A DNA stretch of 64,000 nt from an uncultured Roseburia sp. (lineage in GTDB: Bacteria; Bacillota; Clostridia; Lachnospirales; Lachnospiraceae). Numbering within the stretch: the stretch's first letter is position 1; every line of letters starts with the position of its first letter. The stretch is taken from positions 1 to 64,000 of the forward strand of contig CANSKO010000003.1 of the NCBI GenBank assembly GCA_947647505.1. Reading direction: 5' to 3'. The translations under genes and the position numbers were made by a program. Of the stretch, positions 25,219-59,421 are shown in pieces. The notes below the pieces were generated by a model. It saw only the letters and a program-made list of their open reading frames with translations. It had not been told where the DNA came from and did no database searches.

Positions 25219-27660
25219 ATGATGAAGAAAAAGATTTTAGCAGTCGTTGCCGCCGTCGCGATGCTCTTCTCTGTTGCAGCGCCGGATATCGAAGCTGACG
25301 CCGCTGTAGACAGAACGGGCGCCGTGGGCACGACGTATTATGTCAGCACGCTTCGTGGAAAAGACAGCAACAGTGGCACGAGTAAAAATGAACCGTTTTA
25401 CAGTCTGAGAAAAATCAATGAGCTGCAATTACAACCAGGCGATCAGATTCTTTTAGAATGCGGCTCCGTATTTAAGAATGGCTATCTGCATTTGTTTGGA
25501 CAGTCAGGAAGCGCAGAGGCGCCAATCGTCATTGACCAGTACGGCGAAGGGGCGGACCCCATCATTGATACGAACGGGCAGGGCGTGTGGTATCAGAATT
25601 ATGGAAAACGCCTCGATAATAACTGGCATAAGTATCAGGGCTATGTATCGTCCTCCATTCTGCTGTATGATTCCGAATATATTGAAATAAGGAATCTGGA
25701 GATAGTCAATCAGTCTCCAAAGGTCGATAATTATTACAATGCTGCGGATATGATGGACCGTACCGGCGTTGCAGCCGTAGCGCAGGATAAGGGAACGATC
25801 GACCATATCTATTTGCAGGGACTGAATGTGCACGATATCATTGGAAATGTATACAACAAGCATATGAACAACGGAGGCATTTATTTTACGGTGTATGAGC
25901 CGCATAACGAAGAAGCGACGGGCGTGTCCCGTTACGATGACGTGCGGATTGAAAATTGCAGCGTAACCAACACGAATCGTTGGGGAATTGCAGTTGGATA
26001 TACGACCAAATGGGACAGATTTCAGGGCAGCGTAATTTCAGACGAAACGATTCAGACATACGGCTCCACAAATGTTACGATTCAGAACAACTATGTCAAA
26101 GACGCCGGAGGCGACGCGATTACGCTGATGTATTGCGACAGACCGCTGGTGCAGTATAATGTGTCAGACGGTGCGGGAAGACAGATGCATACGGCGGATT
26201 ATCTGCCTTCTGTAGATGGCTCACAGAGATTTTCAGCGGGCATCTGGCCGTGGAAATGTAAAGACGGCTTATTCCAGTATAACGAAGTATTTGACATGCA
26301 GAACATCAACGGTGAAAACGGAGATGGCCAGGCATGGGATGCGGACTGGACGGATGGAACGATTTACCAGTATAACTACAGCCATAACAACGGAGGCGGC
26401 TGTCTGATGGTTTGTCTGTCAGAAGCATATCGGACGACGTTCCGCTATAATATCAGCCAGAATGACTTAAAAGGCGTGCTCTGTATTTTCTCAAGCCCGA
26501 AAGCGCACATTTACAACAATGTCTTTTATGTGCAGGAAGACGTGCCGATTCATCGTGAGCAAAAGAGCGGAGGCGAGGCGCTGCTTGAGAACAATATCTT
26601 CTACTATACAGGTGAAACGCCAAGAACAGAAGACTGGACCGTAGGCAATAATAAGACGTATAACAATAACCTGTATTACAACTATGCAAACACGCCGACC
26701 GATGCAGGCGCGGTTGTTGTAGAAAAAGGCGATCCGGTCTTTGTCAATGCCGGAAGCGCGCCGCAAATGACGACGGGATCTGTGCGGCTGCATGAGGATC
26801 CAAACGTCAGAAGTCCATTTGACGGATATAAGCTGGCAGAGGGTTCCGCAGCGATTGGAGCAGGAAAAGTCGTTACGGACGCCAATGGCATGGATATGTG
26901 CGAAAAAGATTTCTTTGGCAACGCAATTTCAGCGGAAGAGACGCCGGATATCGGGGTGCACAAGTATCAGGAAAATGAGAATCCGACGATTCCTTCCATG
27001 CCGGACAGAGCGGAAATAAACGAAACAACGGAAAATTCGGCGTCCATCAGCTGGCCTGTTTTATGGGATACAGAGGGAATTGCCGGTTATAAGATCATGG
27101 ACGGCGATCGGGTTTTGCTTGATATTGACGATCTGGATGCAGCGATGGATCCGGATACGCAGATGATTACCGTTTCCTTTACCAACTTGCAGCCGAATAC
27201 GAGATATACGATGTCTGTTGTCGCATATGATGTAAACGGCGTGGAATCAGAGCCGCAGCAGTTTACATTTGTGACGGCAGGTCAGCCGAAGCAGGATGAA
27301 AAACCGGACGACGGCAATAATCCGGGCGGCAACGAAACGCCGGCGCCCACGCCGGACACTCCGGGTGGCGGGCAGCCGCCTGTAGTGGAAAATCCACCGG
27401 GCAATACGGGTTCACAGGGCGAAGAAATCAGCAATAAACAGAAAATAACGGTTAAGAAATCGATTACCGTAAAGAGGGGCAAGAAAGTAAAACTGAAAGT
27501 GACGGTAAAGCCCAAAGGCAAGATCACGTATAAGAGCAGCAATAAGAAAGTCGCTTCCGTCAATAAAAAAGGCGTAATCACAGGCAAGAAGAAGGGAAGC
27601 TGCAAGATTACGGTGAAATGCAACGGAGCGAAGAAAACCGTAAAAGTAAAGGTAAAATAA
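25219..27660 (+). CDS. secreted beta-helix enzyme B2 (GH136-like) with Fn3 and Big2-like basic C-terminal domain
   Basis: Paralog of B1; GDGQAWDADWTDGTIYQYNYSHNNGGG; Fn3; tail KGKITYKSSNKKVASVNKKGVITGKKKGSCKITVKCNGAKKTVKVKVK. Confidence 0.8.
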   Translation: MMKKKILAVVAAVAMLFSVAAPDIEADAAVDRTGAVGTTYYVSTLRGKDSNSGTSKNEPFYSLRKINELQLQPGDQILLECGSVFKNGYLHLFGQSGSAEAPIVIDQYGEGADPIIDTNGQGVWYQNYGKRLDNNWHKYQGYVSSSILLYDSEYIEIRNLEIVNQSPKVDNYYNAADMMDRTGVAAVAQDKGTIDHIYLQGLNVHDIIGNVYNKHMNNGGIYFTVYEPHNEEATGVSRYDDVRIENCSVTNTNRWGIAVGYTTKWDRFQGSVISDETIQTYGSTNVTIQNNYVKDAGGDAITLMYCDRPLVQYNVSDGAGRQMHTADYLPSVDGSQRFSAGIWPWKCKDGLFQYNEVFDMQNINGENGDGQAWDADWTDGTIYQYNYSHNNGGGCLMVCLSEAYRTTFRYNISQNDLKGVLCIFSSPKAHIYNNVFYVQEDVPIHREQKSGGEALLENNIFYYTGETPRTEDWTVGNNKTYNNNLYYNYANTPTDAGAVVVEKGDPVFVNAGSAPQMTTGSVRLHEDPNVRSPFDGYKLAEGSAAIGAGKVVTDANGMDMCEKDFFGNAISAEETPDIGVHKYQENENPTIPSMPDRAEINETTENSASISWPVLWDTEGIAGYKIMDGDRVLLDIDDLDAAMDPDTQMITVSFTNLQPNTRYTMSVVAYDVNGVESEPQQFTFVTAGQPKQDEKPDDGNNPGGNETPAPTPDTPGGGQPPVVENPPGNTGSQGEEISNKQKITVKKSITVKRGKKVKLKVTVKPKGKITYKSSNKKVASVNKKGVITGKKKGSCKITVKCNGAKKTVKVKVK

Positions 27661-56203: not shown

Positions 56204-56844
56204 TTGTAGACGATGATAAACTGGTTGCAATTTCTTTACAGACAATTCTGGAAGCGGATGAAGAAATTACAGTGGCCGGACTGGGAGGCTGCGGAGAAGA
56301 CGCCGTCGCATTGTATGAACGGGAACGGCCGGATATTTTGCTGATGGACATTCGAATGAATGGAATGTCCGGGTTAGAAGCTGCGGAGCGGATTTTAAAG
56401 ACGGATGCTGAGGCGAAAATACTGTTTCTGACGACATTTTCGGACGATGCATATATTATAAAAGCCCTGCGGATGGGGGCGAAAGGGTATCTGTTAAAAC
56501 AGGATTTTGAAAGCATCCTTCCGGCGCTGAAAGCCGTTTTGGGCGGACAGACGGTGTTTGGAGGCGATGTTGCCGGAAAAATCCCGCTGCTTATGCAGAC
56601 GCCGGAGCGCTTTGATTATGCGGAATATGGAATTGCGGAAAAGGAGAAGAGCATTTTGGAGGCTGTTGCGCTGGGATTGAGCAATCGGGAAATTGCCCGG
56701 AAGCTGTTTTTAAGCGAAGGGACCGTTCGCAATTACGTCAGTGTGATTCTGGAAAAATTGCATTTGAGGGACAGGACGCAGCTTGCCGTATTTTATTACA
56801 GGCAGATCGAGGGTATTCAGAGAGGAGAAGAACATGATTTTTGA
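56191..56844 (+). CDS. NarL/FixJ-family response regulator
   Basis: IVIVDDDKLVAISLQ, ILLMDIRMNGMSG; LuxR HTH EKSILEAVALGLSNREIARKLFLSEGTVRNYVSVILEKL. Confidence 0.96.
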   Translation: MRIVIVDDDKLVAISLQTILEADEEITVAGLGGCGEDAVALYERERPDILLMDIRMNGMSGLEAAERILKTDAEAKILFLTTFSDDAYIIKALRMGAKGYLLKQDFESILPALKAVLGGQTVFGGDVAGKIPLLMQTPERFDYAEYGIAEKEKSILEAVALGLSNREIARKLFLSEGTVRNYVSVILEKLHLRDRTQLAVFYYRQIEGIQRGEEHDF

Positions 56845-57625
56845 AACGCATGCGCATTATGACGATGCGAGCTTTGACAATGACAGAGATTTGCTGATGC
56901 AAAATCTGTTGAGCGATAAAATCAGCGCAATACTAAACGTGGGGGCTTCTATTGAGAGCACGAAACGTACGATTGCGCTTGCAGAAAAATATGATGCGGT
57001 TTACGCGGCGGTGGGCGTGCATCCGGGTGAGATTGGAGATTGGAAGGAGGAGAGCATTCACTGGCTGCGGGAACAGGCCAGGCATCCGAAAGTGGTTGCG
57101 ATTGGAGAAATCGGGCTGGATTATCATTGGGAAAAAGATCCTGTGGCGCAGCAAAAGCAGAGGCAGTGTTTTGCGCAGCAGATGGAGCTTGCAAAGGAGC
57201 GTCGTCTTCCCGTTATCATACATTCAAGAGACGCGGCGGAGGATACGATGCAGATCATGAAAAGCGTTCATGCCGATGAAATTCCGGGCGTCGTGCACTG
57301 CTACTCTTATTCGCCCGAGCTTGCGGCGGAATTTTTGAAAATGGGTTATTATATCGGCGTGGGCGGCGTTGTTACATTTAAAAATGCAAAAAAGTTAAAA
57401 GAAGTCGTGCGCCAGGTTCCGCTTGAGAAGATTCTTCTGGAAACGGATGCGCCTTATATGGCGCCGGAACCGTTTCGCGGCAAACGAAACGATTCTTCTC
57501 TGCTTGTGTACGTGGCGGAGGCGATTGCCGAATTAAGGGGAATTTCGAAGGAAGAAGTCGAACGGGTGACAATGGAAAATGCCTGCAGGCTGTTTTTGCC
57601 GCAGACGGTGAAAGAGGTGTCTTGA
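56834..57625 (+). CDS. tatD: TatD-family deoxyribonuclease
   Basis: FETHAHYDDASFDNDRD; IGEIGLDYHW; LETDAPYMAPEPFRGKRND. Start at 56834. Confidence 0.95.
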   Translation: MIFETHAHYDDASFDNDRDLLMQNLLSDKISAILNVGASIESTKRTIALAEKYDAVYAAVGVHPGEIGDWKEESIHWLREQARHPKVVAIGEIGLDYHWEKDPVAQQKQRQCFAQQMELAKERRLPVIIHSRDAAEDTMQIMKSVHADEIPGVVHCYSYSPELAAEFLKMGYYIGVGGVVTFKNAKKLKEVVRQVPLEKILLETDAPYMAPEPFRGKRNDSSLLVYVAEAIAELRGISKEEVERVTMENACRLFLPQTVKEVS

Positions 57626-57650
57626 CAGGAGAAGAGAACCATGTTAGAAT
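57622..57650 (+). promoter_or_regulatory. promoter of the ABC-F leader
   Basis: TTGACA-17 nt-TAGAAT; the -35 overlaps the tatD stop codon. Confidence 0.8.
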
Positions 57651-57664
57651 GATGCCATTAAAAC

Positions 57665-57772
57665 GAGAGAGGTGAAAGGATGAAGAAATAATCTGCTTTT
57701 TGTATGCATGCATAACGACATTGTTTTATCATGCTGCCGAAAGTGGATGATTTCTCATCACCTCTCTTTTTT
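57665..57772 (+). promoter_or_regulatory. candidate ribosome-mediated attenuator (uORF MKK* at 57680-57691 plus long-range terminator)
   Basis: agagaggtga (57666-57675, SD of the uORF) is complementary to tcacctctct (57758-57767), which is followed by a T run. Confidence 0.75.
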
Positions 57773-57858
57773 GTGTGCAAAAATTCCGGACACGGCGCAA
57801 AAGGGAGGCGTTTTGGTGGAGGGAAACCTGAAAGCGGCAGCCGAAGGGAGGAATTTTT

Positions 57859-59421
57859 ATGGCACAGATTCGCGTAAATCATCTGACGTTTTCTTATGAA
57901 GGAAGTTTTGACAATATTTTTGAAGACGTTTCGTTTTCCATCGATACGGGATGGAAGCTGGGATTTCTTGGGAGGAACGGAAAAGGCAAGACGACGTTTC
58001 TGAATCTTCTGATGGGAAAGGAGGCGTATGCGGGAAGCATCTGCGCGCCGGGCGCGTTTGACTGTTTTCCATATGCGCTGACAGAGGAGCAGATGCAGAG
58101 GCCGGCGGCGGAATTTGCGGATCAGATCAAGCCGCAGAGCGAGCAATGGCGCATTCTGCGCGAAATGGAGCGGATGCAGGAAAATGTGGAGCTGCTCTAT
58201 CGACCGTTTCATACGTTAAGTCCCGGGGAGCGCACGAAGATCCTTCTGGCAATTTTATTTTCGGGAGAAGAGCAGGACTTTCTTCTGATTGACGAGCCGA
58301 CGAATCATCTGGACTGGGCTGCGCGAGATAAGGTCAGACAGTACCTGTCATCCAAAAAAAGCTTTCTTCTCGTTTCGCACGACAGAGATTTGCTGGATGC
58401 GTGCGTAGACCACGTGCTTGTGCTGAACCGGAAGACCATCGAAGTGCAGAGCGGTAATTTTTCCAGCTGGTGGGAGAATAAGCGGCGAAAGGATCAGTTC
58501 GCGAAAGCGGAAAATGAAAAGCATCGGAAGGAAATTGAAGCATTAAAAAGGGCGGCGGCGCAGACGGTGCGCTGGGCGGATAAAAACGAAGCGACGAAAA
58601 TTGGCTATCACCCGATCAAAGAAGACCGGTTTATCGGCACCCGGGCGTATATTGGCGCGAAGACGAAGAAAATGCAAAGCCGCGCAAAACAAATAGAAAA
58701 GAGAATGCATCGCCAGATTGAGGAAAAAGAAGGCCTTCTGGTCGATCTGGAAGAGGTGGCGGACTTAAAGCTTATGCCGCTTTCCCATCCCAAAAAGGTT
58801 CTGGTAAACGTGAAAGATTACAGCGTGACGTATCCCAATGCGAAACAGCCGGCGTTTGCGGGCCTGACGTGTTCCGTTTCGCAGGGTGAGCGCATTGCGC
58901 TGCATGGCGGGAACGGCTGCGGAAAATCGACGCTGCTGAAAATGATTTTGCAGCATGCAGGGGTGGAGCAGGAGCAGATGACAGTTTCAGAAAGCGGAAT
59001 CTGTGAAACGGCGTCGGGGCTTATCATTTCATACGTCAGTCAGGATACGTCTGCGCTGCATGGCGGAATCTCTGATTTTTGCGCGAAGCGCAATCTGGAG
59101 GAGGGCCTTTACTGTGCGGTGTTGCGGCAGCTTGCCGTGGAGCGGGAGCAGTTTGGGAAAGACTTAAGCGCGTTTTCCGAAGGGCAGAAGAAAAAGGCGT
59201 TGCTTGCCGCGAGTCTGCTTACGCCCGCGCATTTGTATATCTGGGATGAACCGTTGAACTATATAGACGTATTTTCCAGGATGCAGCTGGAGGCGCTGCT
59301 GCGCTCCGTTTGTCTGACGCTGTTATTTGTGGAACATGACGCCCGATTTCGTAAGGCGGTCGCAACGGGAGAGATTGCGTTGCAGAGAAAAGAGATTGGT
59401 CTGCGGCGGCAGATGTGGTAA
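57859..59421 (+). CDS. ABC-F ATPase, Lsa-like putative ribosomal protection protein
   Basis: Two ABC cassettes (GRNGKGKTTFLNLL; GGNGCGKSTLLKMI), no TM; LLIDEPTNHLD and IWDEPLNYID; interdomain linker VRWADKNEATKIGYHPIKEDRFIGTRAYIGAKTKKMQSRAKQIEKR. Confidence 0.88.
   Translation: MAQIRVNHLTFSYEGSFDNIFEDVSFSIDTGWKLGFLGRNGKGKTTFLNLLMGKEAYAGSICAPGAFDCFPYALTEEQMQRPAAEFADQIKPQSEQWRILREMERMQENVELLYRPFHTLSPGERTKILLAILFSGEEQDFLLIDEPTNHLDWAARDKVRQYLSSKKSFLLVSHDRDLLDACVDHVLVLNRKTIEVQSGNFSSWWENKRRKDQFAKAENEKHRKEIEALKRAAAQTVRWADKNEATKIGYHPIKEDRFIGTRAYIGAKTKKMQSRAKQIEKRMHRQIEEKEGLLVDLEEVADLKLMPLSHPKKVLVNVKDYSVTYPNAKQPAFAGLTCSVSQGERIALHGGNGCGKSTLLKMILQHAGVEQEQMTVSESGICETASGLIISYVSQDTSALHGGISDFCAKRNLEEGLYCAVLRQLAVEREQFGKDLSAFSEGQKKKALLAASLLTPAHLYIWDEPLNYIDVFSRMQLEALLRSVCLTLLFVEHDARFRKAVATGEIALQRKEIGLRRQMW

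Follow-up and report, generated by a model that had tools for sequence, protein, structure and literature searches.

A three-codon uORF and a strand-sharing terminator hairpin in the leader of an Lsa-like ABC-F gene of an uncultured Roseburia: a probable ribosome-mediated attenuator

The leader of an Lsa-like ABC-F gene in an uncultured Roseburia sp. contains a 3-codon uORF buried in a hairpin that ends in a U-tract. It is probably a ribosome-mediated transcription attenuator of this intrinsic Lsa-type gene, in which the 3′ strand of the hairpin is relayed to a downstream partner. The window analyzed here is a stretch of 64,000 nt (contig CANSKO010000003.1), and direct reading of the sequence places the leader at nucleotides 57622–57858. 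The leader parts and the ABC-F gene described below are on the + strand.

The ABC-F ribosome-protection gene follows at 57859–59421, starts with ATG, and encodes 520 aa. The best match of the product is the NCBIfam Lsa model NF000167, with 587 bits, under the curated cut-off of 750. The generic ribosome-protection ABC-F model is matched at 411 bits, over its cut-off of 380, and the nearest solved protein is Lsa(A) (E 6e-105). Based on these matches, the product is Lsa-like, as initially annotated, lies outside the curated Lsa membership, and is a predicted ARE-type ABC-F. The Shine-Dalgarno (SD) sequence of the gene, GGGAGG, is read at 57846–57851. At the other end of the leader, a scan finds a sigma-70-type promoter at 57622–57650, with 11/12 consensus nucleotides and a TG before the −10 box. 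Its boxes, TTGACA (57622–57627) and TAGAAT (57645–57650), are separated by 17 nt, as the initial annotation had described.

The uORF, ATG AAG AAA TAA (Met-Lys-Lys), was reported at 57680–57691 and is read at those positions; its assignment is based on sequence and conservation. The SD region of the uORF, GAGAGAGGUGA (57665–57675), pairs with 57758–57768 and forms the 5′ arm of the outer helix of the hairpin, here called T1. Within it, AGAGAGGTGA (57666–57675) is the exact reverse complement of TCACCTCTCT (57758–57767), so that the 10-nt complement noticed earlier is real. The 10-mer was said to stand immediately before TTTTTT. The six T are there, at 57767–57772, but the run shares its first T with the end of the 10-mer. 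The additional ATGA/TCAT pairing proposed to bury the start codon extends even through the stop codon: T1 continues via UGA.UCA (start codon), GAAAU.AUUUC (coding part and stop), and AUCUGCUUUU.GAAAGUGGAU. The last pairing, together with an inner hairpin, makes up the folded inner stem-loop at 57691–57748, in which CUUUUG.CAAAAG is near-invariant in homologs. T1 is thus a single hairpin of ~104 nt, in which the SD, start, and stop of the uORF are all buried, with six U at its end. Its folding energy is −45.1 kcal/mol versus −24.5 ± 3.2 for dinucleotide shuffles (z −6.5), and none of 200 shuffles is equally stable. T1 is not seen by a simple terminator scan because its loop exceeds the length rule of the scan. 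When the uORF arm is removed, the 3′ strand of T1 is left unpaired in the fold. The folding model suggests that a ribosome bound to the uORF would exclude the formation of T1.

Related ABC-F genes with upstream DNA are available for 109 loci; named genomes supply 80 of these, and sampled genomes of the family the other 29. The SD, the 3-codon uORF, and a CUUUU element are found together in 85 of these 109 upstream regions. The selection of leaders used only these three features of the 5′ side. The uORF peptide of the relatives is mostly Met-Arg/Lys-X, with Arg or Lys as the second residue for 74 of the 79 unique leaders. Lys is written as AAR, while Arg is spelled AGA, AGG, CGA, or CGG. The varied Arg codons at a basic codon 2 point to selection not just for the pairing but also for the peptide or the tRNA. 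Of 78 homologous leaders, 64 have promoter-like −35/−10 boxes no more than 75 nt before the uORF, versus 0 of 32 control stretches.

The pairing of T1 is conserved as well. In an alignment of 40 leaders, on which covariation was measured, 94.0% of the cells are paired, and 16 of 35 pairs are changed on both sides. Doubly changed cells number 44, versus 16.1 ± 3.2 in shuffles, and this count is reached in 0 of 500 shuffles. The outer helix taken separately is 94.9% paired, with five of its eight pairs changed on both sides, while slid controls reduce pairing in T1 to 44–61%. RNAalifold alone recovers most T1 helices from the same alignment. Examples of compensation are AAG-AGA in the uORF with UCUUCAU in the 3′ strand (L045 and L063), and AUGCG with CGCAU (L033). 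Across homologs, the duplex between the uORF arm and the 3′ strand is more stable with native than with swapped partners (−37.6 versus −34.5, z −11.0). On free folding, T1 forms in all 84 leaders. A U-run directly after the T1 stem is present in nearly all aligned leaders, like the U-tract of the window (57767–57772), which follows the same strand. Conservation of the U-tract rests better on this alignment than on T-counts behind the duplex, whose signal is modest because the end of the duplex runs into the U-tract. The uORF and the pairing noted in the initial annotation are thus kept in homologs, together with the SD, the U-tract, and the promoter, and with compensatory changes.

Based on this anatomy, a sequence of events can be proposed, in which uORF translation, drug stalling, termination, readthrough, and induction are predicted steps. 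When no drug is present, ribosomes would complete the 3-codon uORF and depart. The arm containing the SD and the uORF would pair with the strand made ~80–90 nt later, the hairpin before the U-tract would form, and RNA polymerase would stop. A drug of the peptidyl-transferase center (lincosamide, pleuromutilin, or streptogramin A) would hold the ribosome on the uORF at translation start. These three classes act at the first codons (PMC9226507, PMC10201436). The held ribosome would cover the 5′ arm, T1 would be prevented, and transcription would go on. The freed 3′ strand of T1 would then pair just before the ABC-F gene and prevent a second lock. This second lock would be a second terminator in most relatives, and in some probably a hairpin over the SD of the ABC-F gene. 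Homologs give the freed 3′ strand another conserved partner further downstream, which makes a two-lock switch the most likely mechanism.

The 3′ strand of T1 (strand B, 57729–57766 in the window) is a shared strand, whose partner is either the uORF arm or the downstream region C, based on partner-specific pairing in homologs. In 84 homologs, the duplex between strand B and the downstream region has a native mean of −30.9 kcal/mol versus −26.7 for swapped partners (z −12.8). Doubly changed cells in this B:C duplex number 39, versus 19.2 ± 3.9 with a maximum of 35 in 1000 whole-row permutations. In strand B, 25 columns take part in both duplexes, pairing with each of the two partners in 74% of their cells. 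This double pairing possibly explains the conserved UGUUGCC, which is partly in the internal loop of T1. With the uORF blocked, at least 15 B:C pairs form in 56 of 84 leaders, versus 34 of 84 with shuffled C. In about one third of the leaders, the minimum free energy fold with the uORF blocked is not in favor of B:C, and the second terminator (T2) and local hairpins are strong competitors. The thermodynamic signal of B:C is clear, not overwhelming, so timing during transcription presumably decides.

T2 is an element of the form ..TGAGGTTATAG..GGAACTGTTTGGCAACAAACGGTTCC-T6.. between T1 and the ABC-F gene, seen in 60 of 110 leaders. In its typical form, TGAGGTTATAGTATGTAATGGAACTGTTTGGCAACAAACGGTTCC stands before a T-run. 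Successive segments of the 5′ part of T2 are complementary to the 3′ strand of T1: GAGGUUAU/AUAACCUC, GGAAC/GUUC, and UUUGGCAACA/UGUUGCCAAA. Judged from these pairings, the 3′ strand of T1 probably has two alternative uses, one with the uORF arm in the stop signal and the other with the downstream region. The reading of T2 as a second translated ORF (ATG GAA CTG TTT GGC..) was rejected, because L010 and other relatives lack the ATG and the changes suit a hairpin.

The attenuation logic put forward in the initial annotation matches published systems with 3-codon uORFs. It was drawn as a one-step block, however, and so omits the second downstream partner of the 3′ strand. A one-step attenuator, in which the uORF ribosome simply blocks the 5′ arm of T1 and the downstream complementarity has no role, is somewhat unlikely. 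T1 is the sole clear terminator in the window, where the second lock is weakly supported, and msrD offers a precedent for a stalled ribosome that directly obstructs a terminator (PMC10314930). Yet the 3′ strand of T1 and the region before the ABC-F gene are complementary and covary in the 84 homologs, and a one-step block would leave the second terminator closed in ~60 relatives.

In the window itself, the relay of the two-lock switch is less distinct. Folding by RNAfold with the uORF footprint blocked predicts that strand B and the U-tract, once the uORF arm is occupied, pair with region C at 57796–57839. The pairing segments are GGGAGG, GGUGG, GGGAAA, and CGGCA, with 13 + 5 + 6 + 5 pairs and a short helix. 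The B:C duplex of the window has −30.1 kcal/mol versus −23.1 ± 3.4 for shuffled C, which is marginal, as 17 of 500 shuffles are as good. Its mean pairing probability is 0.38 with the uORF blocked. No U-rich T2 is visible between T1 and the ABC-F gene in the window. A second lock at this locus would be likely by descent, yet it is uncertain, and T1 and the uORF are what can safely be stated.

A possible anti-SD sequence in the window, AAAAAUUCC (57779–57787), makes nine perfect pairs with GGAAUUUUU (57850–57858) in the free fold and covers the end of the ABC-F SD. This pairing, together with apparent SD-sequestering versions in some relatives (for example L067 and L075), would suit a purely translational regulator, in which the ABC-F SD is sequestered and transcription termination has no role. 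Such a regulator is very unlikely, as the fold over the window SD is no better than shuffles (z −0.27), and the U-tract of T1 is conserved. Blocking the uORF is not predicted to make the SD freer either (unpaired 0.57 free, 0.40 blocked). An SD-sequestering second lock within the proposed attenuator is likewise uncertain for the window.

Some relatives show other arrangements in front of the ABC-F gene. In the last 130 nt before the gene in L067, L075, L086, L106, and L111, the 3′ arm of T2 is seemingly swapped for the ABC-F SD. The GAGGUUAU-like and UUUGGC-like elements are retained, and the terminator has apparently become an SD lock. L096 (G060:C35, ~27017–27145, − strand) is without the 3′ arm of T1, and the ABC-F start is directly behind. 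Its ABC-F SD, AAAAGGAG, is at the site of the CAAAAG : CUUUUG pairing with the uORF arm, which would make it a purely translational version.

By analogy with vmlR, cplR, and msrD, the principle is ribosome-mediated attenuation, which is already known. The vmlR leader of Bacillus subtilis, lincomycin-induced in published tests, contains a tested 3-codon uORF, MIN, with the natural variants MDN, MDK, and MRK (PMC9226507). It shares with the present leader an ARE-ABCF gene, a 3-codon uORF buried in a hairpin, and, as judged across relatives, an antiterminator that would form when that hairpin is prevented. It also has a downstream terminator and an SD-sequestering hairpin, comparable to the second lock in relatives. 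It differs in gene subfamily (VmlR versus Lsa) and in uORF consensus. The variant MRK placed in vmlR is a weaker inducer (PMC9226507), which is a point against the proposed attenuator. The cplR leader of Clostridioides difficile and other clostridia contains a tested 3-codon uORF with the consensus MR[I/M] (PMC10201436), close to M[R/K]X. It has a uORF hairpin followed by a terminator hairpin and belongs to Clostridia, as here. However, CplR is of a different ABC-F group, and the terminator hairpin of cplR itself contains the SD of the gene.

The uORF hairpin of vmlR (SL-1) is described only as an anti-antiterminator, and that of cplR is not described as a terminator, whereas the U-tract at the end of T1 is conserved and gives this hairpin the look of a terminator. 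As the topology is the same (uORF hairpin, antiterminator, terminator), T1 could also be merely an anti-antiterminator with an incidental U-tract, and the real termination would occur at T2 alone. This is improbable, since almost every aligned leader keeps the U-run right behind the T1 stem; moreover, with no T2 visible in the window, T1 would be the only terminator there. T1 as the first lock of an attenuator is the reading retained here.

Other ABC-F leaders are more distant. In msrD (MsrDL), a ribosome stalled on a short uORF likewise obstructs the intrinsic terminator of an ABC-F gene (PMC10314930). The uORF of msrD has six codons, MYLIFM, and its stall is macrolide- and sequence-specific and occurs at termination (PMC10314930), whereas the uORF here has three codons and the stall would come at translation start. 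The leader of lsaA belongs to the nearest characterized gene family (Lsa), but its uORF has four codons, MAGN, and another consensus (PMC10201436). The lincomycin-induced lmo0919/vgaL of Listeria monocytogenes (PMC6310831), named in the initial annotation, is compared by its gene type (ABC-F). Similar leaders are found at are5sc/tiaA of Streptomyces.

Over the whole window, the only Rfam match at gathering score is to a tRNA. At the leader of the window, Rfam gives only sub-threshold matches, the best with E 0.043 on the other strand, and the homologous leaders tested have no match at gathering score. The matches to rliI (19.9 bits) and tfoR (17.9 bits) near the leader are far under their gathering scores and were discarded. 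A published description of the leader was not found in the literature searched, whose coverage mostly excluded subscription papers. The RNA family and the reused strand look undescribed. Judged by sequence comparison, what would be new here is a uORF hairpin that is itself a U-tract terminator, the Lsa-like gene, and a distinct conserved RNA family.

The distribution was searched with a covariance model of T1. In the family of the window, Lachnospiraceae, the leader is present in 50 of 397 sampled genomes. Protein and leader matches read together place 43 of the 50 leaders directly upstream of an Lsa-like ABC-F gene. The class-level sample contains the leader in 2 of 391 genomes, both in the family of the window. 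In the order-level sample, 19 of 392 genomes have it, again all listed as Lachnospiraceae. Outside the family, it occurs at a few named loci, such as Ruminococcus flavefaciens ND2009 (L038). A search of plasmids and phages with one representative leader (L109) gave no match. This distribution suggests a chromosomal, family-centered cassette, occasionally serving other genes. In G143, another sampled genome of the same genus with ~98% completeness, neither an Lsa-like ABC-F (E ≤ 1e-100) nor the leader is matched.

The settings of the other seven leaders (L120–L126) vary. The leader precedes a GNAT acetyltransferase gene in L121 (2054–2530, −) and a PRK06761-like P-loop protein fused to GNAT in L122 (293–1564, +). 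A divergent ABC-F follows it in L125 (303–2690, +), with a PRK06761-like gene next, and in L126 (778–2310, −). Because of the shared leader, the GNAT, the P-loop/GNAT fusion, and the divergent ABC-Fs are candidate drug-inducible resistance genes. In L123, the leader precedes a truncated Lsa-like gene. In L124 (G334:C26), it is followed by only the first ABC-F codons (MAQIDVNNLTF..) and then by a MATE transporter gene, so that the gene behind the leader was apparently replaced. L120 has no gene close behind.

The hairpin lies 40 nt behind a TatD-type gene (56783–57625), and could be taken for the plain intergenic terminator of this gene, with a short ATG..TAA inside by chance. This is hardly credible, as a 3-codon uORF with an SD and a basic codon 2 is conserved across many genera, and a promoter is located just before the uORF in 64 of 78 leaders. 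Strand B also pairs in a partner-specific way with the ABC-F side, and the leader precedes other genes elsewhere.

Two further types of leaders are seen upstream of related genes. A second class (L130, L131, L136, L138, L140–L143, and L145–L148) is found upstream of Lsa-like ABC-Fs that are 47–54% identical. The uORF of this class is longer, mostly 6–8 codons, and (S/A/T)C or (S/A/T)C(R/K) is conserved towards its end; examples are MIIISCR, MINFSCR, MRIDACR, and MRTASC. In these leaders, a TTTCTTGCAG-like stretch has its complement further downstream, in a CTGCAGGAAA-like one, and a terminator-like hairpin follows later. The divergent ABC-F leaders of L149 and L150 contain 4-codon uORFs (MRNR and MINR), and L149 has a T2-like hairpin, ..GTCTGTTTTCGG..GAAGACAGACTTTTTT. 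These two are possibly a third relative of the leader.

Taken together, it is somewhat more probable than its opposite that the leader represents an undescribed, Lachnospiraceae-centered family of cis-regulatory RNAs, in which a strand is handed over from T1 to disarm T2 or an SD lock, and which acts as a portable drug-sensing cassette. If so, the shared-strand design would be a clean case of two serial terminators governed by one ribosome event. The GNAT, the P-loop/GNAT fusion, and the divergent ABC-Fs would then be candidates for inducible resistance to these drug classes. The covariance model would offer a route to further genes under the same drugs, with no prior knowledge of their sequences. 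Lachnospiraceae are dominant gut bacteria and are exposed to drugs such as clindamycin. With the leader in 50 of 397 genomes, ribosome protection that is silent until induced by a drug would be widespread in this family, and such protection would be absent from expression data collected without drug.
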